In this document: piece by piece, positions 2,681-52,359 of the stretch | How positions within the stretch are numbered: position 1 is the stretch's first letter | Layout of the letters: each line of letters starts with the position of its first letter | IMG/VR virus record: IMGVR_UViG_3300017962_000016 | Span: 1 to 53,040 of that record | Direction: 5' to 3' (one strand) | Length of the DNA: 53,040 nt | DNA from: a virus | Program-made: the position numbers and the translations under genes | Notes under the pieces: generated by a model | What the model was told of the DNA's origin: nothing | Database searches by the model: none | What the model saw: the letters and a program-made list of their open reading frames with translations, nothing else

Positions 2681-3084
2681 TGCCAATCGCTCGAACAGGT
2701 GGTGCTAGTGCAGCGGGGGTGTTCTTTTCCGAACCATACCCCTCTCAAGATGTTCTATTGGCAGGTTCTTTGGTTTCGATAGACACCTCCAATGGCACTC
2801 CTGAAATAATTCTTGCTGATCCCTCCAATGCCGACAGGTTATTGGGCTTTGCGGTATCAGGAATAAACATTGGAGATGTTGGCAAGTATGTTGTGAATCG
2901 AGGAGCTCTCGTCACACCTATCGTTGCGGGCGGGGGTGCTTTGACCCCCAATGATCCTGTCTTTGCTGTCGCCAATGGTGAGGTGTCCCATACACCACCC
3001 ACAACAGGTTTTTCTGTGCAAGTGGGCTTTGCGATTTCAGCCACACAAATTATTCTCACAACGGATTTCAGAGTAGAATTCTAA
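2680..3084 (+). CDS. Capsid decoration-like protein
   Basis: This 134-residue protein is rich in Gly, Ala and Val with alternating beta pattern: DVLLAGSLVSIDTSNG, then LLGFAVSGINIGDVGKYV, GGALTPNDPVFAVANGEV and a final strand VGFAISATQIILTTDF. The order of a small barrel with a final hydrophobic strand is like DUF2190 and head-decoration proteins, and it resembles the C-terminal 50 residues of the fibre gene that ends at 1874. I infer a small capsid-surface decoration protein. It is translationally coupled to the membrane protein upstream. No catalytic residues are seen. Confidence 0.55.
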   Translation: MPIARTGGASAAGVFFSEPYPSQDVLLAGSLVSIDTSNGTPEIILADPSNADRLLGFAVSGINIGDVGKYVVNRGALVTPIVAGGGALTPNDPVFAVANGEVSHTPPTTGFSVQVGFAISATQIILTTDFRVEF

Positions 3085-5194: not shown

Positions 5195-5977
5195 ATGAGA
5201 AAGTTCAATAGAAAGGTTGCATATAGCCCACCCGCATCCGAGCTTCCCGGACAACAAACCTATGTTCGAGAAAAAGATGATACGGGAACAGGCGACAAGG
5301 ACAGGTCACCTGATAGTGTCTTGTCACCTGATAAGGCAACTCCAAGATCGCCCACTCGTCCTGACAGTAATGGTGAGGACAATATCAAGCATCTTGGTCC
5401 AGCAACTTTCAATGTTCCTGATGGCTCTGCCGATGAGATTAAATCTCGTACTCGTCCTGCTGAGGGGGAACAATATGGACATCCCTATAATGATCAAACA
5501 TCAAATGTTCGTGTAAAAAAGAACATTCGGACATCTTCTATTGAACAAGCCCTTGAACGAGAAATGATTCAGAGGGTGGCGAGTGCTTGGATAAAAGAAG
5601 CTGTCATTCGTGTGAGAGAAAGACCACATGTGAAACCAAAAGGTTTGTTCAACACAAGATACAAACAAGACCGACCGAAATCACAACAGAATCATCACCC
5701 AACCAGCGACCTCTTGAAGAAGAAACGATACTACCGCAGAAACAAAGCCAAAATCCGAAGAAAGAATAAGGTTCGATACAAGAGAAAGTACAAGAACAAC
5801 AAGAGGTGGAAAAAGGTTCAAGATAGAAGAAAGACCAATCCACAAAAGCACATTCGGAAATCACCGAGCAAATCTATTCTGAAAAGAAATAAGAGAAAGC
5901 ACCAACAGAACTACAAGAAAAGAAACCGTATGGCTATGATTGAGCGAGTTGCCTCAAGATATTTGGGTTTGCTATGA
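5195..5977 (+). CDS. Very basic protein with two RVAS-type tags
   Basis: The first 115 residues are polar and Pro/Ser/Asp-rich, so probably disordered. Residues about 120-135 hold MIQRVASAWIKEA and the extreme C-terminus is MIERVASRYLGLL, two copies of one amphipathic peptide. Between them, residues 135-245 are more than a third Lys and Arg (KKKRYYRRNKAKIRRKNK is typical), a composition suited to binding nucleic acid. The stop overlaps the next start (ATGA). I infer a DNA-binding virion or internal protein. No known domain is recognised. The neighbour at 5974 has the same layout in a different order, suggesting a related pair. Confidence 0.55.
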   Translation: MRKFNRKVAYSPPASELPGQQTYVREKDDTGTGDKDRSPDSVLSPDKATPRSPTRPDSNGEDNIKHLGPATFNVPDGSADEIKSRTRPAEGEQYGHPYNDQTSNVRVKKNIRTSSIEQALEREMIQRVASAWIKEAVIRVRERPHVKPKGLFNTRYKQDRPKSQQNHHPTSDLLKKKRYYRRNKAKIRRKNKVRYKRKYKNNKRWKKVQDRRKTNPQKHIRKSPSKSILKRNKRKHQQNYKKRNRMAMIERVASRYLGLL

Positions 5978-10807: not shown

Positions 10808-11155
10808 ATGAACCTACGATCAAAATTAATTCGATTGGCGAAAAACAATCCTGAAATCCGAGAGGACATCTTGCCCTTGTTGGTTGAGAAAAAAGCAAAC
10901 AAAAAGGGCTTTTATGTCGTTGAATCGGAAAATGGTGAGTTCTTTGCTGTCGCTGAGGAATTTATCCGAAAGAAATACATAGGGGATTTTACTCCTTATG
11001 AGAATTGGAATGGTCGTGTTGATGGTGAAATTTTCGCTGGGAGTCACAGAGATCAATTGAAAAGTATTGATGGATTGTTTTGGTCGGTCAATATGATGTA
11101 TGGTCTTTTTGATGAAGGCTTGGTCAATGAAAAAATTATTAAGGCATTTCAATAA
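10808..11155 (+). CDS. Small protein with N-terminal LRSKLIRLA tag
   Basis: The frame is open from 10679 through the upstream gene, but the first credible start is the ATG at 10808, after GGAG. Residues 2-26 are LRSKLIRLAKNNPEIREDIL plus PLL, the same peptide that begins the next gene and lies near the C-terminus of the 982-residue protein at 49411. The remaining 85 residues form a small mixed domain (GFYVVESENGEFFAVAEEFI, then a basic/aromatic region YENWNGRVDGEIFAG) with no family recognised. I infer that the tag targets the protein to the virion and the rest is cargo. Confidence 0.55.
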   Translation: MNLRSKLIRLAKNNPEIREDILPLLVEKKANKKGFYVVESENGEFFAVAEEFIRKKYIGDFTPYENWNGRVDGEIFAGSHRDQLKSIDGLFWSVNMMYGLFDEGLVNEKIIKAFQ

Positions 11156-12154: not shown

Positions 12155-13330
12155 TTATCGAATCAAGAGCATCTCAACGGTACATCGATCCCAAAGGTCT
12201 TTATTTCGACCTCTCATGTGAGGGGATGTCCCATAGGTTGTACTCTTGGCAATCTCTAACATTTGAGATCCATTTGTATCCCAAATCTTTTTCATTTCCT
12301 TGAGGGTTTTTGTCCAAGTGAATTTGTTGGTTTTCTCATCGTAGTTCAAGAACACTCGGAAAGCACTCAATATTGGATACAGAGCCGATCTCTCAAGAGA
12401 GTAGTTGCCTTGTGTATCAAGGAAATAGAAATCGGTTTTTCCATTCTTTATGATAGAAAGACGACCGCCTTTTCGACCCGCTTTCGCATTGTTCCAAGCA
12501 TCTCTCGCTGTGGAGGAAATGTAATCTGACATCTCAAGAAATATGGGAGTGTGTTCCGCGAGAGAATCGTACAAGTCAAGATTCTTCAAATAGTGATCTC
12601 GATACCCCGCCTTTGCTGAATATGCTCGAATAGGAACAACTCTTGATGAGGCTGAGAAATCTCTTGTGTTGAACATATAGAGATGGGCAAGAATTGTTTC
12701 AATGTCAATCTTCTCGTTCCCATTCTCATTGTAAGCCACATTGTTCTCATACACTTGACCTTTGATAGCATCTTTGATCTTGTCAAACTTGTTATCAAGA
12801 TTCGCAAGGGATTTCTCTTTCACTTGGATTCCTGTATTCAAGCCTCTCGCAATCTCAGAGATCAACTCGTCAGGATAGTTCTCAAGAACCTCCATCTTGA
12901 CAAATTGTTGAATATTGTCGCCTTGTTCGTTTCGTTCCAAAATAGAATCTTGGCTCTCAGAGATAATGGTGTATGTATGTCCTCCATCTAGGATGCCATG
13001 CAAGTGTTGATCGTCAAGAACAATCGAACATTCTTCTCTCTTTCTGTTTCGTTGGAAAGATTCAACAGAGATCGTAATGCCTTTGTTCTTCAAGTGGAAG
13101 ATATTCTCAGGGGCATCGCCATCGTTCAAGAGCTCCGCCTTGATCTCTCTCCACAACTTACGATTGACCTTTGGCTGTCGAGGATTGGGTTTGTCGGAAA
13201 CTCCTTGTGGGAGATCTGACACATTAACAAGTAATGTCCATCTGCGAGTGTTGTACCCATTGGTAGATAGAACATTAGGTTCAGGGATTTGGCGAATTGC
13301 TTTCGCCTTTATCGTGTATTTTGTTTTCAT
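12155..13330 (-). CDS. AIPR-family (abortive-infection type) protein
   Basis: The 391-residue product has FHLKNKGITISVESF at residues 79-93 and HGILDGGHTYTII at 111-123, followed by a helix with ARGLNTGIQVKEKSLANLD. The order of the (K/N)NxGITI strand, the (V/L)DGGHT loop and the ARxxNTxxxVK helix is that of the AIPR family (PF10592), named for abortive-infection phage-resistance proteins such as AbiR-type systems. Biochemical activity of the family is not established. It is the only large minus-strand gene here, with GGAG five bases ahead of its ATG, its own terminator and a private upstream region. This is a moron-like arrangement; a role in excluding competing phages is inferred. No partner gene is adjacent on the same strand. 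Confidence 0.75.
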   Translation of the reverse strand: MKTKYTIKAKAIRQIPEPNVLSTNGYNTRRWTLLVNVSDLPQGVSDKPNPRQPKVNRKLWREIKAELLNDGDAPENIFHLKNKGITISVESFQRNRKREECSIVLDDQHLHGILDGGHTYTIISESQDSILERNEQGDNIQQFVKMEVLENYPDELISEIARGLNTGIQVKEKSLANLDNKFDKIKDAIKGQVYENNVAYNENGNEKIDIETILAHLYMFNTRDFSASSRVVPIRAYSAKAGYRDHYLKNLDLYDSLAEHTPIFLEMSDYISSTARDAWNNAKAGRKGGRLSIIKNGKTDFYFLDTQGNYSLERSALYPILSAFRVFLNYDEKTNKFTWTKTLKEMKKIWDTNGSQMLEIAKSTTYGTSPHMRGRNKDLWDRCTVEMLLIR

Positions 13331-16647: not shown

Positions 16648-17655
16648 ATGTCTAAGAAAAAACAACTAGGTGTCGGAATCGATCTTGGCACTATGAATAT
16701 CGTTTCTGCTCGTCAAGGGGAGAAAGGTATCGACATCCGTAGGATTCGAGATGCGTTTCTTGATCTTGACCTTTCTGCAAAGAAAATGTTGAAACTCTCA
16801 GGAGTGGATTTCATTGAGCGAGAGAACGAGATTCTTCTTATTGGAGATGCCGCACTCGAAACAGCGAATGTCTTTGGACAAGAGGCAAGGCGACCTCTTT
16901 CACAAGGTCTTATTTCCGCTGGAGAGATTGATGCCATTGAGGTTCTTGGTATTCTAGTTCGCCATGTGCTTGGAGAACCGACCGAAAAGAATGAGGTGTG
17001 TTATTTCTCTATCCCTGCCGCCCCTGTAGATGACCTCACAAGAGATGTAATTTATCACGAGGGTGTCTTTGAACGAATCGTACAAGAATGTGGCTATGAT
17101 GCCGTTGCGAGTAATGAGGCGATGGCGATTATTTTTTCCGATTGTGCGAAAGAGGGTTTCAGTGGATTGGCGATTTCTTTTGGGGCTGGTATGTGCAACA
17201 TCGCCCTTGCCATCAATACCATTGAGGGATTGTGTTTCTCGGTAGCGAGGGGTGGCGATTGGATTGACGCAGGTGCTTCTAAGGCAACGGGTTCAACTCA
17301 ATCAAAGATCACAGCACTCAAGGAAGCAGGAATTGATCTTCTCAACCCAAAGACACGCGAAGAAGAAGCTCTTGCGGTCTATTACAAGAGTTTGATTAAA
17401 TATTGCTTAAAGCACATCGCCAACGAGTTCAAGAAAATCAAAGGAAAGTTCAGTATGCCCAAGCCTATTCCTCTTGTCATTTCAGGTGGAACATCTAAGG
17501 CAGGTGGATTTGTAGAATTCTTCCAACAAGTTTTTGAAGAACAACGATCTCGTTTTCCAATTGAAATCAGTGAAATTCGACACGCCAAAGATCCCCTCAA
17601 TGCCGTTGCACTTGGACTCTATGTTCAAGCCCAAAACGAATACGATGAGGACTAA
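16648..17655 (+). CDS. Actin-fold ATPase (ParM/MreB/Hsp70 superfamily)
   Basis: Three nucleotide-pocket motifs are in order. Phosphate-1 is GVGIDLGTMNIVSAR (residues 8-22, Asp12). Phosphate-2 is LAISFGAGMCNIAL (174-187). The adenosine loop is PLVISGGTSKAGGF (275-288). There is also an MreB/FtsA-like ARGGDWIDAG (about 201-210). At phosphate-2 the usual acidic residue is replaced by Ser177, so ATP hydrolysis may be slow or absent. Phage actin relatives elsewhere form filaments that move or position DNA; a similar role here, or a chaperone-like role in assembly, is inferred. AGGAG lies seven bases before the start. The gene sits among neck-type genes. Confidence 0.7.
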   Translation: MSKKKQLGVGIDLGTMNIVSARQGEKGIDIRRIRDAFLDLDLSAKKMLKLSGVDFIERENEILLIGDAALETANVFGQEARRPLSQGLISAGEIDAIEVLGILVRHVLGEPTEKNEVCYFSIPAAPVDDLTRDVIYHEGVFERIVQECGYDAVASNEAMAIIFSDCAKEGFSGLAISFGAGMCNIALAINTIEGLCFSVARGGDWIDAGASKATGSTQSKITALKEAGIDLLNPKTREEEALAVYYKSLIKYCLKHIANEFKKIKGKFSMPKPIPLVISGGTSKAGGFVEFFQQVFEEQRSRFPIEISEIRHAKDPLNAVALGLYVQAQNEYDED

Positions 17656-25209: not shown

Positions 25210-25232
25210 TCATAAAGATTCAGATACACACA

Positions 25233-25265
25233 AAGCCTCTTGGATTCTTTCAAGGGGCTTTTTTT
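25233..25265 (+). terminator. Rho-independent terminator after the sheath gene
   Basis: AAGCCTCTTG pairs with CAAGGGGCTT (one G-T pair) around an eight-base loop, followed by seven T. Confidence 0.8.
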
Positions 25266-25302
25266 ATGTCAAAGCGATCTCTAATGGATAGATTGTCGGT
25301 AC

Positions 25303-25313
25303 TGTTCTATACA
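25303..25313 (+). promoter_or_regulatory. Shared 11-mer TGTTCTATACA upstream of the methyltransferase
   Basis: The same 11 bases occur at 13402 ahead of the gene at 13490. It resembles an extended -10 box but has no clear -35 partner. It may mark a promoter class for non-structural genes. Confidence 0.25.
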
Positions 25314-25335
25314 ATAAAAATCTATTGGAGAAACA

Positions 25336-27462
25336 ATGAAGTTTATGTCTTTTTTTAGTGGGATTGAAGCAGCTTCTGTCGCTTGGAAGCCACTAGGGTG
25401 GGAATGTGTAAGTGTGAGCGAGATAGACGAGTTCGCAAGTGCTGTTCTAGCCCACAGATACCCAAATGTACCAAATCTCGGTGATATCACCAAAATATCG
25501 GAGGATAAATTAAATGAAATCAAACGAAAGCACAACGGAATCGATCTTATCATTGGAGGATCTCCTTGTCAGTCCTTCTCAATTGCAGGACTCAGAAAGG
25601 GACTTAAAGACCCTAGAGGCAACCTTATGCTTGAGTACGCTCGAATCGTCCATACCATCCGTCCAAGATTCTTCATATGGGAAAATGTTGTCGGTGCTTT
25701 ATCCACAAACGGAGGACGAGATTTTGGAACACTCCTCACAACAATGGCAAAATTCGGGTATCGTCTCCAATGGCGAGTGCTGGATGCTCAGTTCTTTGGA
25801 GTCGCCCAAAGAAGGCGTCGAGTCTTTCTTGTGGGATATCTTGGAAACAAACCAAATTGGGACAGAATACTATTTGAGCCCAATTGCGGCAAAGGGAATC
25901 ATACGGAGAGCCAAAACGAATGGGGTGACGATTCATCCGAAATTGAGGACAGCCTTGATGGAGATTATTCAGAACGAGAGCTGAGTCTTTCTGATATGCT
26001 TTTCGGTGGCTCAAATGAGGTTGAAGAAGAACCACAAGAATCACAAGAACCACAACCTAAAAAAGAAAATCCTTTTGTGTTTCCAAGTAATTGGCATCCA
26101 AACGAGGGAGAACACACCAATGTTTCTCCAACTCTCACAACAAAGGGCTCTGTTCGAGTAGTTGAAAATGATCAAGATGGTGTGTGGTTTCTTCCAACAA
26201 CACAACCGAATGGTGTGACCTTGTTTCGGAAAACAAACATCTCCTCAACCCTTGTAGCCGCTATGGGTGGCGGGGGTGGACATATCCCTAATGTGGTGGA
26301 AAATAAAACTTGGGTTATGGCAAGTTTGCACAACAATGATGTAGCAGGTTTTAAGGCTTCAAATGTATCTCCCACACTCCTTGCCACTATGTCACACGAT
26401 GTCGTTCCAAGAGTTTTTGATGAAGAAAAACCTAAGTCGGTTTGGATAATGCGAAATAGCCTTGTGGGTGGCATACAAGGGTTTGGTCTTTCTAGTGTAT
26501 CTCCCACACTCCTTGCTGGTATGGGTCTTGGGGGGAATGTTGTACCCATGCTCCTAGATGAAACTTCACAAGAAGATATACCAAAGGTGTTCATAACAAG
26601 AGGGGATAATTGGGGTGCGATTTCTTGTGGTCGATATGACCATGTGGCACCAACGCTTGTTTGTTTTGTGGGTTCTCGTCCTGTTATTATAGACGAGAAA
26701 CCAAAGCCTTTCGTTATGGCAAGTACCAACTCAAATGACATATCAAATGCAAAACACTCCAATGTTGCACCAACCTTATGCACTTTTGTTGGACAGAAGC
26801 CAATGATCCTAGAAGAACCTTTCTTGTTTCACAACAACTACAAGAACCACCCACCTAAGCCACAGAGTAATTGCCCTACTTTGATGGCATCAATGGGTGG
26901 TGGTGGGGGGCATATCCCTTTTGTTGTGGAAAATGTTTCTTTCTATCAATCAAACAACTTTAGTGGATCACAATATGCTCTTTTCCATTCCAATTATTCG
27001 TCTTATGGACAATTGAGAGAACCTGTAGAGAAAGCACACACTTTGATGGCGGCTATGGGCAAAGAACCTCGTATGGTTCCGATGGTGATGGAAGAAAACA
27101 TTATTGCAAGTATCGTTCAACCAAAGGAAGATATCGAACAAGTACCTATCAGTCTCTACAATGGTGCGGTCAATACAGATGTCTTTCATACACTAACAGC
27201 CGCGACAGCAATCAATGCAAGTGGTCCTCGTTTGTGGGAACGATCTACTTATCGGAATCGTATTCGCAAACTCACAGAGATTGAATGTGAAAGGCTACAA
27301 GGTTTTCCTGACAATTGGACAAAGATTCCATACAAGGGCAAGCCTGAGAGTAATTGTCCGAAATCTCCTCGATATAAATGTCTAGGAAATTCAATGGCTG
27401 TTCCTGTCATTGAGTGGATCGGTACAAGAATTGAAAAATTTGATAACAACCAATTAACATAA
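25336..27462 (+). CDS. Cytosine-C5 DNA methyltransferase with many target-recognition modules
   Basis: The classical motifs are present: I, MSFFSGIEAASVA (residues 4-16); IV, GGSPCQSFSIAG (74-85) with catalytic Cys78; VI, FIWENV (113-118); VIII, QFFGVAQRRRRVFLVG (152-167); IX, IRKLTEIECERLQGFP (643-658); X, CLGNSMAVPV (682-691). It transfers a methyl group to cytosine C5 in a specific DNA sequence. The region between motifs VIII and IX is about 475 residues; a single-specificity enzyme has about 80-150. It holds nine repeated modules (see the repeat entry). It stands alone between terminators with its own GGAG. I infer a multi-specific methyltransferase protecting phage DNA from host restriction. 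No restriction partner is present. Confidence 0.9.
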   Translation: MKFMSFFSGIEAASVAWKPLGWECVSVSEIDEFASAVLAHRYPNVPNLGDITKISEDKLNEIKRKHNGIDLIIGGSPCQSFSIAGLRKGLKDPRGNLMLEYARIVHTIRPRFFIWENVVGALSTNGGRDFGTLLTTMAKFGYRLQWRVLDAQFFGVAQRRRRVFLVGYLGNKPNWDRILFEPNCGKGNHTESQNEWGDDSSEIEDSLDGDYSERELSLSDMLFGGSNEVEEEPQESQEPQPKKENPFVFPSNWHPNEGEHTNVSPTLTTKGSVRVVENDQDGVWFLPTTQPNGVTLFRKTNISSTLVAAMGGGGGHIPNVVENKTWVMASLHNNDVAGFKASNVSPTLLATMSHDVVPRVFDEEKPKSVWIMRNSLVGGIQGFGLSSVSPTLLAGMGLGGNVVPMLLDETSQEDIPKVFITRGDNWGAISCGRYDHVAPTLVCFVGSRPVIIDEKPKPFVMASTNSNDISNAKHSNVAPTLCTFVGQKPMILEEPFLFHNNYKNHPPKPQSNCPTLMASMGGGGGHIPFVVENVSFYQSNNFSGSQYALFHSNYSSYGQLREPVEKAHTLMAAMGKEPRMVPMVMEENIIASIVQPKEDIEQVPISLYNGAVNTDVFHTLTAATAINASGPRLWERSTYRNRIRKLTEIECERLQGFPDNWTKIPYKGKPESNCPKSPRYKCLGNSMAVPVIEWIGTRIEKFDNNQLT
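26107..27231 (+). repeat. Nine target-recognition-like modules inside the methyltransferase
   Basis: The modules are centred on a Thr-Leu pair at residues 266, 305, 347, 391, 440, 480, 515, 569 and 619, so spacing is 35-54 residues. Typical cores are NVSPTLLATM, SVSPTLLAGMG, HVAPTLVCFVG and NVAPTLCTFVG, each followed by a hydrophobic strand (such as VVPRV, RPVII or KPMIL) and a variable segment. Two modules share an identical MGGGGGHIP loop (310-318 and 520-528), which suggests recent duplication. Target-recognition domains of SPR-type multi-specific enzymes are of this size and contain a conserved T-L pair. Confidence 0.8.
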
Positions 27463-27483
27463 TAGGTATTATGTAAAACCAAT

Positions 27484-27506
27484 GAGAGGGGACACCCTCT
27501 CTTTTT
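27484..27506 (+). terminator. Rho-independent terminator after the methyltransferase
   Basis: GAGAGGG pairs perfectly with CCCTCTC around a four-base loop, followed by five T. Confidence 0.75.
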
Positions 27507-27526
27507 CAACCCACAGGAGAATCGCT

Positions 27527-27721
27527 ATGAGTGATAAATCAGTAAAAGAAAATGTACAAGTTCTCGTTGATACATTAACCTCTGCCTTAGAAGATGCTGA
27601 AAAGTTTTCTGACAAAGGAAACGCCGCTGCGGGAACACGAGTTCGCAAGGCACTTCTTGATGTGAGTAAATCTTGCAAAGAGATTCGTCAGCAAGTATCG
27701 GACGAGAAAAACACAAAATAA
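27527..27721 (+). CDS. Histone H1-like (Hc1-type) small DNA-binding protein
   Basis: The frame opens at 27482, but the ATG at 27527, seven bases after AGGAG, gives the natural start. The 64-residue product has KENVQVLVDTLTSALEDAEK, then GNAAAGTRVRKAL (31-43) and a helix SKSCKEIRQQVSDE. The block FxxKGNxAAGTRVRKxL is typical of the Hc1-like histone family (PF07432) found in Chlamydiae and Bacteroidetes. Such proteins bind and compact DNA. It is the first of two related small proteins between the methyltransferase and the tail tube gene. A role in condensing phage DNA or displacing host proteins is inferred. Confidence 0.65.
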   Translation: MSDKSVKENVQVLVDTLTSALEDAEKFSDKGNAAAGTRVRKALLDVSKSCKEIRQQVSDEKNTK

Positions 27722-27750
27722 TTTTCTAGGCTAGATATTTTGATATGGGT

Positions 27751-27780
27751 AAGGTGGTTGTGATGACCACCTTATTTTTT
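27751..27780 (+). terminator. Rho-independent terminator
   Basis: An eight-base perfect stem (AAGGTGGT with ACCACCTT) with a seven-base loop, followed by ATTTTTTTT. It separates the two histone-like genes; the next ribosome binding site lies directly in its wake. Confidence 0.75.
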
Positions 27781-27791
27781 TGGAGTGAGAA

Positions 27792-28010
27792 ATGTTTTTG
27801 GAGATTAGAGCTCTGTCTATTATGGAAAAGGCAAAGGAAATGCGAAAAGACCTACAAGCCTTTGAAGATCCCGCTATGAAAAGTACAAGAGCGGGTATTC
27901 GTGCAAGAAAGATGGCAAAAGAGATAGAGAAAGACCTTATAGCACTCCGAAAAGAAATTATGACCATTCGTAGGAAGCGAGTCGCAACAGGAGAGAAAAA
28001 AACATTGTAG
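27792..28010 (+). CDS. Second small histone-like protein
   Basis: The 72-residue product is helical and basic: IMEKAKEMRKDLQAFEDPAM, then KSTRAGIRARKMAKEIEKDL, ALRKEIMTIRRKR and a Lys-rich end. The segment STRAGIRARKM (31-41) is similar to AAGTRVRKALL in the preceding protein, and both are followed by a charged helix of the same length. I infer a diverged paralogue or at least the same fold. The Lys/Arg content fits DNA binding. GGAG lies eight bases ahead. Confidence 0.5.
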   Translation: MFLEIRALSIMEKAKEMRKDLQAFEDPAMKSTRAGIRARKMAKEIEKDLIALRKEIMTIRRKRVATGEKKTL

Positions 28011-28020
28011 GGGGTTTTTC

Positions 28021-28037
28021 AATAAAGACTTTATATT
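28021..28037 (+). promoter_or_regulatory. Candidate late promoter motif (AATAAAGACTTTATATT)
   Basis: A copy of the recurring motif 64 bases ahead of the tail tube gene. TTTCTATATC follows ten bases on. Confidence 0.45.
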
Positions 28038-28100
28038 TCTATATCTTTTGTAGGAGTATCATCCTTCGTTAATGAGCAAAAAATGTAGAGAGGTGTATCA

Positions 28101-48920: not shown

Positions 48921-49382
48921 ATGGATCCATTAACAATTGGTATTCTTTGTTTCTTGGGTGGTAGTTTGGTTACAGGCGGTACCATTTGGGGAATACAAGA
49001 AGCGAACAAAGATAGAACACAAGAAACAACAGAGCTGGTGAAAGCAATCGGTGGCTTGAAAGACACATTGGCAGATGGACAAAAGCAAGTGATGATCAAC
49101 TTGACCGACCAAGACCTCCTGAAAGATGCTTGTTCTACTACCTATATTGAGAAGAATGGTGATTTGCTTTGCAGAGAGATGTTCTGTCGTATGCAAAATC
49201 GTGGTTTAGACAAGGGTGCGACACAAGCAGAATGTGAAAACATTAGTCATATCACCAACAGTAAGCACAGATTGGATACTTGTATGGAATATTGGGATAA
49301 AGACACCATCCTTGAAGATGGGGGGTTCAATAAGAACTCCAAGTATGCCCTTTGTATGCAAGTATTTGAAAACCGCGAATAG
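48921..49382 (+). CDS. Membrane-anchored cysteine-rich protein, 153 aa
   Basis: An ATG at 48900 overlaps the previous stop, but AAGGAG at 48908-48913 serves the ATG at 48921. The product starts with a membrane anchor (DPLTIGILCFLGGSLVTGG, about 2-20). The remaining 130 residues hold six cysteines (DACSTTY, LLCREMFCRM, AECENI, DTCMEY, ALCMQV), enough for three disulfides if the domain is outside the cytoplasm. It has no family match. Export with an N-terminal anchor is inferred from the sequence. Confidence 0.55.
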   Translation: MDPLTIGILCFLGGSLVTGGTIWGIQEANKDRTQETTELVKAIGGLKDTLADGQKQVMINLTDQDLLKDACSTTYIEKNGDLLCREMFCRMQNRGLDKGATQAECENISHITNSKHRLDTCMEYWDKDTILEDGGFNKNSKYALCMQVFENRE

Positions 49383-49410
49383 TTATCATTTTTTTTTTGG
49401 AGTATATATT

Positions 49411-52359
49411 ATGTTAAAATTTGAAACGAAAGATCTCCCTTCGAGCTCTTTGAAAGATATTGAAAGAGCCCTTGCAGCCTCTCCCAAATTAAAGACAAGG
49501 GGTAAGATTGAGTTAGAAATACGAAAGACCGATGGTATTCCTCGATATGAAATAGATGGTGGCAAGTTGATTTTCCACCATAGTAAATTTGGAAGCAGAA
49601 ACACAAAGATTATCGGTACATATTTCATAATTGCGGATTACATTCTACAACAAGCCTCTAATGGACAACAATGGAAAAAGCATTGGAAACCAAACAAGAG
49701 AGAGGTCAGACGCTTGATCGCAGAGAACAAAGCCGCGTTTTCTCCTTTGAGAGATATTATTGGTCAGAAGCAAATTGATGTCTTAGGGTTTGCCGTTGTT
49801 CTTCTTGTTTATGTTCAATATGCGAAAGGCAAATACGAGGATGAGGGCAAGACTTTCAAGAACACTTTCTTGAACTTTTTCAAGCGAGATACATCGGACG
49901 AGATTTCAGCTCAAACCAATGACGAGAAATTGATTCATCTCCAAAGTAGTACAAGGATCATTCAGCAATATAATGATCTTCCTGAAAAAGGTGTATCAAC
50001 AAACTTAGATTCTTACTTGCCTGATGGCTTAAAAACTCGTTCGGTTGATTTTCTCAAGGAAAAAACGACAATTGCGGAAGCCATTGATTTTCTTGAGAGT
50101 GAAATTGACGAAAAAAGTGGTGTGAAACGAGAGCAACAGATTTTGGCTTTCACATCAACGGTTGAGAAAGAGCTCACCGAAACCTTTATGAAAGAGGTTC
50201 TTGGCAAGCCCGAAGAAAAAGTAGTCGATGGGGAAACCGTAAAGATCAAACCTGCGTCCTTTGAGGCACAAAAATGGCAAAAAGAACAACGAGAGATGTT
50301 GGATTCTTTTGCAGATGTTTTTAAGGTAGAAACGGGTTCTGTTATCATCAATGATCTTCAAAGCACATTGGACAATCAAAATCCCAAAGACTTTGAGATG
50401 GTTTCTAAACTAGACAAAAAACAGAAAGACATTTGGAAAGACCTCATTGAGAAAACAAACTCAACAGACATTGATTTTTCAGAGCTGTTCAAACCATTTG
50501 AATTAGAGATTGAGGATGGGAAAGTCAAGTCTAGTGGATTCACTTGGTATACCGCTGCCAACAATAAACTAGAAGATTTTCGTGTATTGGTTCAACGGGC
50601 AAAAGAGAGTGGTGAGACGGGTTATGATGATATGGAGTTGGAAGCAGCCCTAGAACAAGTTGTTGAAATGCTACAGCCACCTATCCCTGATCCTGAAACT
50701 CCTGTTGTCACAATTGGACCAATCAAAGGTGCTGACAGAGCGATTCAGAAGATTGCTAAGTACGACCAAGACATATCTCGTTTGGGTGATATTGTTCGTT
50801 TCACAATTGTTGTGGATAAAGACTTGAGCAACTTTGAAGAAATCTTTGAAACCCTGCGACAACAAGTAGAAATGCAAGGGGGAGAAATCGCTACAAGGAT
50901 TGAGAATCGCTATGAGGAACCCACTCCTGTGGCTTATGGTGATGTCACATTTTCTGTTCGATATAAGTCAGGTCTTGTTGGAGAGGTGCAAATCACAACA
51001 CCCGTAATGGCAGCGGCAAAAGAACGATTGCACAAAGAGTACGAGAAGCAACGAAATGTTGATTCATACACAGAGTACTTAAAGGGGATGGCAAAATCTG
51101 TAGAAGACATTATGTTGTTGGAGGATAAAAGACAAGCGGGTGACTTGGCATCAAATCTGAAAAAGACTATCGCTGAGATTCAGTCCAAATTGATTGACGA
51201 TGCCAAACCAAAGCACAAAGAACAAATGGAATCTGAGTTCAACAAGGTTATCGCCCCCATACAAGAGGCGATTGCTAAGTTGGAATCGGGAGCGATGTCG
51301 GTCGCACAAGTTGCTTCTTTGGTTTCAAAGACAGCAAAGTTCTTCCCTTCTATCAAAGACTTGTACGAATACGAGCAAACACAATTGAATCAGATACAAG
51401 GATATATAGAGGCGAGAACCGCTATGGGTATGCCTGATTTCATTCAACCTTTCCCACTCAGAACAACTATGAAAGGTGGAGAGATTGTGTTCAAAGATGA
51501 TTTCCTTGAACACATTATGGAGAATGTTGAACAGAACCTTGATGTTGGCTCTGAAAACAATCCAACTCAAGAATATCTTGAAAGTGTCGCCAAGCAGATT
51601 CTTCTTGCTAGGAGTTACGACAAAGATACCTATGGATATCCAGCATCATACACAAAGCAAGTACAAAAAGCTCTCCAAAAGAAATCTTCTTCTTTGCACA
51701 CAAAGGTCGCTGCGGACATTGGTGTAGATGGTAGTGGATACTATATGATTGAGGGAATTCCTTATTCTTGGGATGGCTTTATGACGCTTCCTAAATTCTT
51801 CACAGGAAATGATCCTGCTGGTGAGGTCGATGCGGAACTTGCTGATTTCTTGAGAAAGGCAACTCCAATCACAGAGGATGCTTTCCACAAAGCCGTTGCT
51901 GAATTGACAATGGAGAAAGCACAGAAGCGTGAAGAAATGCTAGAGCTCGGAGAGGCGATGATTCAAGCCTATCGTCAAGCGAAAGCAACAGGTGAGATCA
52001 AGACAGCCTCAACCAAGACCGCGAAAGAGAAAGTTCTTCGCAACAAGTTGATTCGTCTTGCACATACCAAGCCCCATCTTCGTAAGCACATTCTTCCTTT
52101 GTTGAAAAATGCCACAAACTCCTCAGAGTTGTTGAAAGCAAAGACTATCTCTATCAAAGGTTATGGTATGTTTACCGTTGTAGGTGCTGATGTGAAAAAA
52201 CAAGACATCTATCTCAAAGAGATGGGTGGCAGAAAAGAATACACTCTTTCTGTAACACTTGGGGCTTCGTTAGAGGGGAATGGTGCAGAGTTAAAGGCTC
52301 GTGGGAACACAAGAATGAGACCAAGATTCATAGATGGAAAATTAATTACCATTATTTAA
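49411..52359 (+). CDS. Large protein with RelA/SpoT-like fold and an LRNKLIRLA tag (982 aa)
   Basis: The frame opens at 49216 inside the previous gene, but the ATG at 49411, after GGAG, is the real start. Residues about 440-545 fit the RelA/SpoT nucleotidyltransferase fold: a basic stretch GADRAIQKIAKYDQ, then LGDIVRFTIVV with Asp460, ENRYEEPTPVAYGD, GEVQITTP with Glu525, and AKERLHKEYEKQ. Asp and Glu at these places are the metal and catalytic residues in (p)ppGpp synthetases. Residues 876-897 are the shared tag (LRNKLIRLAHTKPHLRKHIL), followed by a small beta domain of ~80 residues. Substrate, and whether it is active, cannot be told. I infer a virion-associated or ejected effector. Confidence 0.55.
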   Translation: MLKFETKDLPSSSLKDIERALAASPKLKTRGKIELEIRKTDGIPRYEIDGGKLIFHHSKFGSRNTKIIGTYFIIADYILQQASNGQQWKKHWKPNKREVRRLIAENKAAFSPLRDIIGQKQIDVLGFAVVLLVYVQYAKGKYEDEGKTFKNTFLNFFKRDTSDEISAQTNDEKLIHLQSSTRIIQQYNDLPEKGVSTNLDSYLPDGLKTRSVDFLKEKTTIAEAIDFLESEIDEKSGVKREQQILAFTSTVEKELTETFMKEVLGKPEEKVVDGETVKIKPASFEAQKWQKEQREMLDSFADVFKVETGSVIINDLQSTLDNQNPKDFEMVSKLDKKQKDIWKDLIEKTNSTDIDFSELFKPFELEIEDGKVKSSGFTWYTAANNKLEDFRVLVQRAKESGETGYDDMELEAALEQVVEMLQPPIPDPETPVVTIGPIKGADRAIQKIAKYDQDISRLGDIVRFTIVVDKDLSNFEEIFETLRQQVEMQGGEIATRIENRYEEPTPVAYGDVTFSVRYKSGLVGEVQITTPVMAAAKERLHKEYEKQRNVDSYTEYLKGMAKSVEDIMLLEDKRQAGDLASNLKKTIAEIQSKLIDDAKPKHKEQMESEFNKVIAPIQEAIAKLESGAMSVAQVASLVSKTAKFFPSIKDLYEYEQTQLNQIQGYIEARTAMGMPDFIQPFPLRTTMKGGEIVFKDDFLEHIMENVEQNLDVGSENNPTQEYLESVAKQILLARSYDKDTYGYPASYTKQVQKALQKKSSSLHTKVAADIGVDGSGYYMIEGIPYSWDGFMTLPKFFTGNDPAGEVDAELADFLRKATPITEDAFHKAVAELTMEKAQKREEMLELGEAMIQAYRQAKATGEIKTASTKTAKEKVLRNKLIRLAHTKPHLRKHILPLLKNATNSSELLKAKTISIKGYGMFTVVGADVKKQDIYLKEMGGRKEYTLSVTLGASLEGNGAELKARGNTRMRPRFIDGKLITII

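Follow-up and report, generated by a model that had tools for sequence, protein, structure and literature searches.

Positions 25336-27462 (+) of the window, as we call the 53,040-nucleotide stretch of viral DNA analysed here, form a single uninterrupted frame of 708 aa encoding a C5-cytosine methyltransferase (Table 1). The Pfam DNA_methylase family matches residues 1-238 and, a second time, the C-terminus, and phrog_116, which also matches (E 1.8e-91), is annotated as DNA methyltransferase. Motifs I, IV (PCQ), VI (ENV), VIII (QRRRR), IX and X are all present and in order, and the product is classed from its sequence as a DNA (cytosine-C5) methyltransferase. AlphaFold gave a catalytic core of high confidence for the full protein and a pLDDT of ∼ 30 for the region between motifs VIII and IX. 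For a relative with only two of the modules described below, these were partly modelled (pLDDT ∼ 40-55), and a PDB fold search found the whole fold to be M.HhaI-like, that of a C5-methyltransferase.

The gene is flanked by the tail sheath gene on one side and by small genes preceding the tail tube gene on the other. No restriction endonuclease gene lies beside it, and in this sense the methyltransferase is an orphan. The neighbouring genes (sheath, tape measure, baseplate) are related to those of LR745208, a 485-kb uncultured phage, and their order is conserved, which indicates that the window represents one piece of a huge-phage genome; a huge myovirus is the best explanation for the window virus. 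LR745208 itself has no C5-methyltransferase. In L287, the closest relative (its sheath and tube are 90-92% identical), the interval between sheath and tube is an empty site of 646 bp, compared with 2,895 bp in the window. Neither L287 nor any other sheath-tube locus examined carries the gene, so it is dispensable cargo. Two hairpins resembling intrinsic terminators, each identified by consensus match only, frame the gene, which therefore looks like an independent cassette. A comparison of window positions 25210-28100 with L225, L247, L287 and other huge-phage loci marks the sheath-tube interval as a cargo hotspot of 0.1-9 kb with varied contents in this huge-phage clade; judged by eye, the cargo in several relatives seems to include MerR-type regulators, a large VIT/VWA-like protein and phospholipase-D-type nucleases.

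Elsewhere in the window, a Volactin-family actin-like protein (16648-17655; Pfam PF25216, E 1.8e-68) lies among the tail genes, and an AIPR-family protein (12155-13330, minus strand; PF10592, E 3.4e-23; a family named from abortive phage infection) has its neighbours on the opposite strand. An ORF of 1047 aa (49216-52359) contains a weak RelA/SpoT-like region (E 2.8e-4, below the Pfam cut-off). At 10814, 11176 and 52036 and at 5945, 6481 and 6533, the peptide LRxKLIRLAxxxPxLRxxLLPLL recurs in several proteins and RVAxRYL is found near the ends of others. Similar peptides occur in the related huge-phage loci L229 and L226; they are possibly tags for virion targeting or processing.

The module array

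The ∼ 480 residues between motifs VIII and IX hold nine tandem modules, each with a Thr-Leu (TL) pair, between residues 266 and 619. The nine segments share the core (N/S)-V-(S/A)-P-T-L-x-A-x-M-G, and acidic turns separate most of them. Residues 241-640 contain ten TL pairs compared with 1.6 expected from shuffled sequences (maximum 7 in 20,000); the tenth, at residue 295, lies inside the variable loop of module 2 and lacks the module core. Compared pairwise, the nine cores score 8.5 on average, whereas random windows give -7.3 (sd 1.35). An HMM trained on 299 modules from IMG/VR relatives in other phages, with no window sequence included, found exactly nine domains at the TL sites (E 2.9e-17). 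It found no domain in the reversed protein, 0-2 when the module region was shuffled, exactly two in the methyltransferase of phi3T, an enzyme with two specificities, and a single domain in each of six single-target-recognition-domain (TRD) enzymes of the GCNGC type. Taken singly, the modules scored between about -1 and 12 bits, with modules 4 and 5 weak on their own. A tblastn search of phages with the repeat region alone gave no match, because the modules are too short and too diverged for a single-sequence search.

The GCNGC type takes its name from enzymes such as that of plasmid pAF22, where the single-TRD methyltransferase gene adjoins an endonuclease gene of the family of Bsp6I, whose target is GCNGC. 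In hhalign comparisons the module profile aligned TL-on-TL with the GCNGC-type TRD (P 1.3e-9), with the phi3T TRD (2.9e-4) and, weakly, with M.HhaI (0.013), whereas a column-shuffled control gave 0.3. On these alignments the window modules are homologous to experimentally defined TRDs, and the predicted arrangement, several tandem TL-core TRDs between motifs VIII and IX, is that of the SPR/phi3T type. Both the count of nine tandem TL modules and their identity as TRDs of this kind had been proposed in an earlier note made from the DNA alone. The former is confirmed by the TL excess, the core scores and the independent HMM, and the latter is supported by the profile alignment and the matching domain counts in control enzymes. 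Judged from the sequence and by analogy with M.HhaI, each module would consist of a strand, variable loop I, the TL core, variable loop II and a second strand.

Table 1. Coordinates of the methyltransferase gene, its parts, its internal repeats and the flanking hairpins (TL, residue of the Thr-Leu pair; trimers are given as N-TL/C-TL)
Feature	Position	Strand	Basis
Hairpin before gene, intrinsic-terminator-like	25232..25261	+	consensus match only
C5-cytosine DNA methyltransferase, 708 aa, predicted nine-TRD multispecific type	25336..27462	+	Pfam DNA_methylase 3.9e-64; phrog_116 1.8e-91; M.HhaI 2.3e-27
N-terminal catalytic part, motifs I-VIII (FSGIE, GGSPCQ with Cys78, WENV, QRRRR)	25336..25920	+	Pfam, M.HhaI, AlphaFold core
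Acidic linker, motif VIII to first module	25921..26067	+	sequence
TRD module 1, TL 266, WHP/GSV	26068..26166	+	core score, HMM, trimers
TRD module 2, TL 305, NGV/MGG, MGGGGGHIP loop	26173..26304	+	core score, DNA repeat, HMM, trimers
C-terminal half-module repeat, copy 1 (module 2)	26263..26304	+	83% identical to 26893-26934
TRD module 3, TL 347, NDV/MSH	26305..26433	+	core score, HMM, trimers
TL-core repeat, module 3	26364..26384	+	21 nt identical to 26496-26516
TRD module 4, TL 391, GGI/MGL, C-terminal half like GCNGC-type TRDs	26434..26565	+	core score, HMM (weak alone), trimers
TL-core repeat, module 4	26496..26516	+	21 nt identical to 26364-26384
TRD module 5, TL 440, GAI/VGS	26575..26706	+	core score, HMM (weakest alone), trimers
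TRD module 6, TL 480, NDI/VGQ	26707..26823	+	core score, DNA repeat, HMM, trimers
TRD module 7, TL 515, YKN/MGG, MGGGGGHIP loop	26824..26940	+	core score, DNA repeat, HMM, trimers
C-terminal half-module repeat, copy 2 (module 7)	26893..26934	+	DNA repeat comparison
TRD module 8, TL 569, SYG/MGK, longest module	26941..27105	+	core score, HMM, trimers
TRD module 9, TL 619, SLY/TAI, LYNGxxxxD type	27145..27255	+	core score, HMM, trimers
C-terminal catalytic part, motifs IX and X	27256..27459	+	Pfam positions 269-324, E 6.3e-13
Hairpin after gene, intrinsic-terminator-like	27484..27501	+	consensus match only

Repeats and turnover of modules

The MGGGGGHIP loop is present in modules 2 and 7, as the earlier note had observed; its claim that this reflects recent copying was overstated, the DNA match of 42 nt being only 83% identical and confined to the C-terminal halves, with N-terminal halves that differ. 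The 21 identical nt over the TL cores of modules 3 and 4 make a better case for recent copying. Modules 3 and 6 have 12 nt in common in their N-terminal halves, and module 6 resembles module 3 in its N-terminal and module 5 in its C-terminal half. Together these repeats suggest exchange at the TL core. Support for half-module exchange comes from the repeats of the window alone, since many of the apparent cases in a family-wide test were shifts in alignment register.

Exchange between phages is seen at the level of whole modules. Individual window modules match modules from unrelated phages: module 2 is among those with such matches, and the LYNGxxxxD type of module 9 occurs in many phages. Two IMG/VR enzymes, L357 and L361, share modules that are mostly 80-94% identical and whose order is permuted. 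In the sister huge phage G002 (289 kb), an enzyme whose catalytic core is 67% identical over 180 aa carries two or three modules rather than nine; its gene lies elsewhere in the genome than the window gene does, and G002 has other C5-methyltransferase-like frames too. On sequence comparison, related phages thus carry the same enzyme with either a short or a long chain. Module content does therefore differ between related phages, a comparison that had been proposed as a check, and the permuted modules of L357 and L361 together with the short chain of G002 indicate that module gain and shuffling are real. Closer to the window, a near-identical contig differs by eight SNPs (six synonymous), none of which alters the number of modules, and two other IMG/VR contigs of the window virus are 99.85-99.89% identical, too similar to show turnover.

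Nine modules had also been thought exceptional. Among 301 distinct viral C5-methyltransferases, a sample biased towards relatives of the queries, one to seven modules are normal and the window protein is joint third: L443 also has nine, L361 ∼ 12 (849 aa) and L357 ∼ 15 (883 aa), although these counts are rough because of a lenient threshold with 0-3 false positives per protein. L357 and L361 exceed the window protein and rule out nine as the known maximum. In another relative, L011 (Mannheimia phage 587AP2), an apparent intein or homing element interrupts the methyltransferase frame directly after the PC of the catalytic PCQ motif.

Restriction pressure and proposed function

Several restriction palindromes are avoided to an extreme degree in the window (positions 1-53040; observed/expected GGCC 1/85, ACGT 0/69, CCGG 4/62, CATG 34/185, CCNGG 4/33), and this avoidance is far stronger than in LR745208. 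The near-absence of GGCC, ACGT, CCGG and CCNGG points to strong restriction pressure on the phage. These four sites presumably lie outside the coverage of the enzyme and, since they are still almost absent, any shield cannot be general. AGCT behaves differently, with 0/119 and 0/253 in two closer relatives against 96/158 in the window, where the sites are evenly spread; CGCG and GCGC are nearly absent from the two relatives and partly restored in the window. Matching methylation, once acquired, could yield this recovery of AGCT, CGCG and GCGC, but the AGCT difference would be explained equally well by a different host or by further methyltransferase genes beyond the 53-kb window. GCNGC, the target to which the loop II type points, is not avoided in the window, which might be taken to support a GCNGC module; this argument fails because neither of the two relatives, which lack this enzyme at the locus, avoids GCNGC.

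We are largely confident that the gene encodes a multispecific C5-methyltransferase of the SPR/phi3T kind, with nine TRDs on one catalytic core, in a huge myovirus, and the enzyme probably disguises the phage DNA from many bacterial restriction enzymes at once. One catalytic domain (motifs I-VIII and IX-X) would serve nine TRDs inserted where a TRD normally lies, each module reading a short DNA target, as in M.HhaI, via two loops beside the TL pair. Presented to the DNA one at a time, the modules would allow up to nine different cytosine targets to be methylated, and the phage DNA would thereby be protected from the matching type II restriction enzymes, while recombination between phages adds, removes and reorders modules. 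For activity, the number of working specificities, their targets and protection, this is what we infer. Contact trimers assigned by the scheme of PMC2413257 differ among the modules (all nine N-TL trimers are distinct, and the C-TL trimers are of eight kinds), which suggests more than one methylated target; none equals those that PMC2413257 gives for GGCC, CCGG or GCGC. We would put the chance that at least five modules have distinct working targets at roughly even. A fuller account, in which all nine specificities exist, whole modules and half-modules (the loops before or after TL) are exchanged, acquisition of the enzyme relaxed the avoidance of AGCT, CGCG and GCGC, and the uncovered GGCC, CCGG, ACGT and CCNGG stay purged, seems to us rather unlikely as a whole.

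The strongest rival holds that only some modules work and that the chain, maintained by copying and recombination, is a store of TRDs in partial decay, with one to four targets methylated. This is compatible with the nine-TRD architecture; what it contests is solely that all nine modules work. Modules 4, 5 and 9 are weak alone in the HMM, the C-TL trimers match no published diagnostic, and targets may overlap (loop II is common to modules 2 and 7 and part of loop I to modules 3 and 6, and loop II is similar in modules 5 and 6); conservation of modules across phages, moreover, does not show activity in the window protein. On the other hand, none of the nine has a frameshift, a stop or a lost TL pair, the SNPs between near-identical contigs are mostly synonymous, and both modules that the HMM finds in phi3T correspond to specificities known from the literature. 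We regard partial activity as a serious contender, somewhat short of an even chance. A role in regulation, packaging or replication instead of anti-restriction is improbable: the gene does sit among virion genes, between sheath and tube, and such roles are on record for other phage methyltransferases (reviewed in PMC12707154), but its absence from the closest relative and the other examined sheath-tube loci marks it as dispensable cargo, the phage DNA bears strong signs of restriction pressure, and variable multi-target recognition is better explained by anti-restriction. Least credible is a protein-binding or low-complexity insert in the TRD region, an idea that draws on the low-confidence structure prediction and some glycine-rich loops, since known TRDs match by profile with TL in register, the control enzymes give the right domain counts, and the only TRD of the single-target enzymes, encoded beside a Bsp6I-family endonuclease gene, is one such module.

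Comparison with known methyltransferases

Textbooks treat multispecific methyltransferases as a curiosity of a few Bacillus phages, where they have two or three targets. The window case and the census of viral enzymes around it suggest that environmental phages commonly have long TRD chains, which grow to nine modules or beyond. If such chains work, one gene would give protection against many restriction enzymes, and its modules could supply new cytosine-methylation specificities. Both the number of TRDs that a single catalytic core can serve and a possible division of labour between methylation and site avoidance become testable with it. Multispecific C5-methyltransferases as such are an already known kind (PMC12707154, PMC5923457, PMC8936443). 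A search of the open literature for chains exceeding about five TRDs found none described, and neither the length of the window chain nor the frequency that such chains seem to have in environmental phages was reported there.

Five IMG/VR enzymes (L357, L361, L443, L051 and L039), themselves uncharacterised, have the same architecture with about 7 to 15 modules, mostly different from those of the window. The TRD core of the GCNGC single-TRD enzymes (e.g. that of pAF22), NVCPTLTANMGTGGHNVP, resembles the C-terminal halves of window modules 2, 4 and 7; these enzymes differ in having one TRD, a restriction enzyme partner and another loop I. With nine modules and no adjacent endonuclease, the window enzyme is not a single-target GCNGC methyltransferase partnered with Bsp6I. 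M.phiBssHII is reportedly also multispecific, with TRDs at separated places (Sethmann et al. 1999, cited in PMC8936443); it resembles the window enzyme in combining several specificities (predicted ones in the window) in one phage enzyme, whereas the window modules all lie in one region between motifs VIII and IX. In a C5-methyltransferase of L483 (protein starting at 3001) a TRD-like module follows motif X, away from where TRDs usually lie, and the layout of this enzyme is closer to the separated TRDs of M.phiBssHII than that of the window enzyme is. The nearest known counterparts in layout are M.SPR, M.phi3T, M.rho11S and M.H2 of Bacillus phages, which have the same single core and tandem TL-pair TRDs of ∼ 40 aa between motifs VIII and IX. 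The phi3T TRD core, GLSPTLTTMGGG, is closely similar to the window module cores; the Bacillus-phage enzymes have two or three TRDs, whereas the window enzyme, from a different phage group, has nine.
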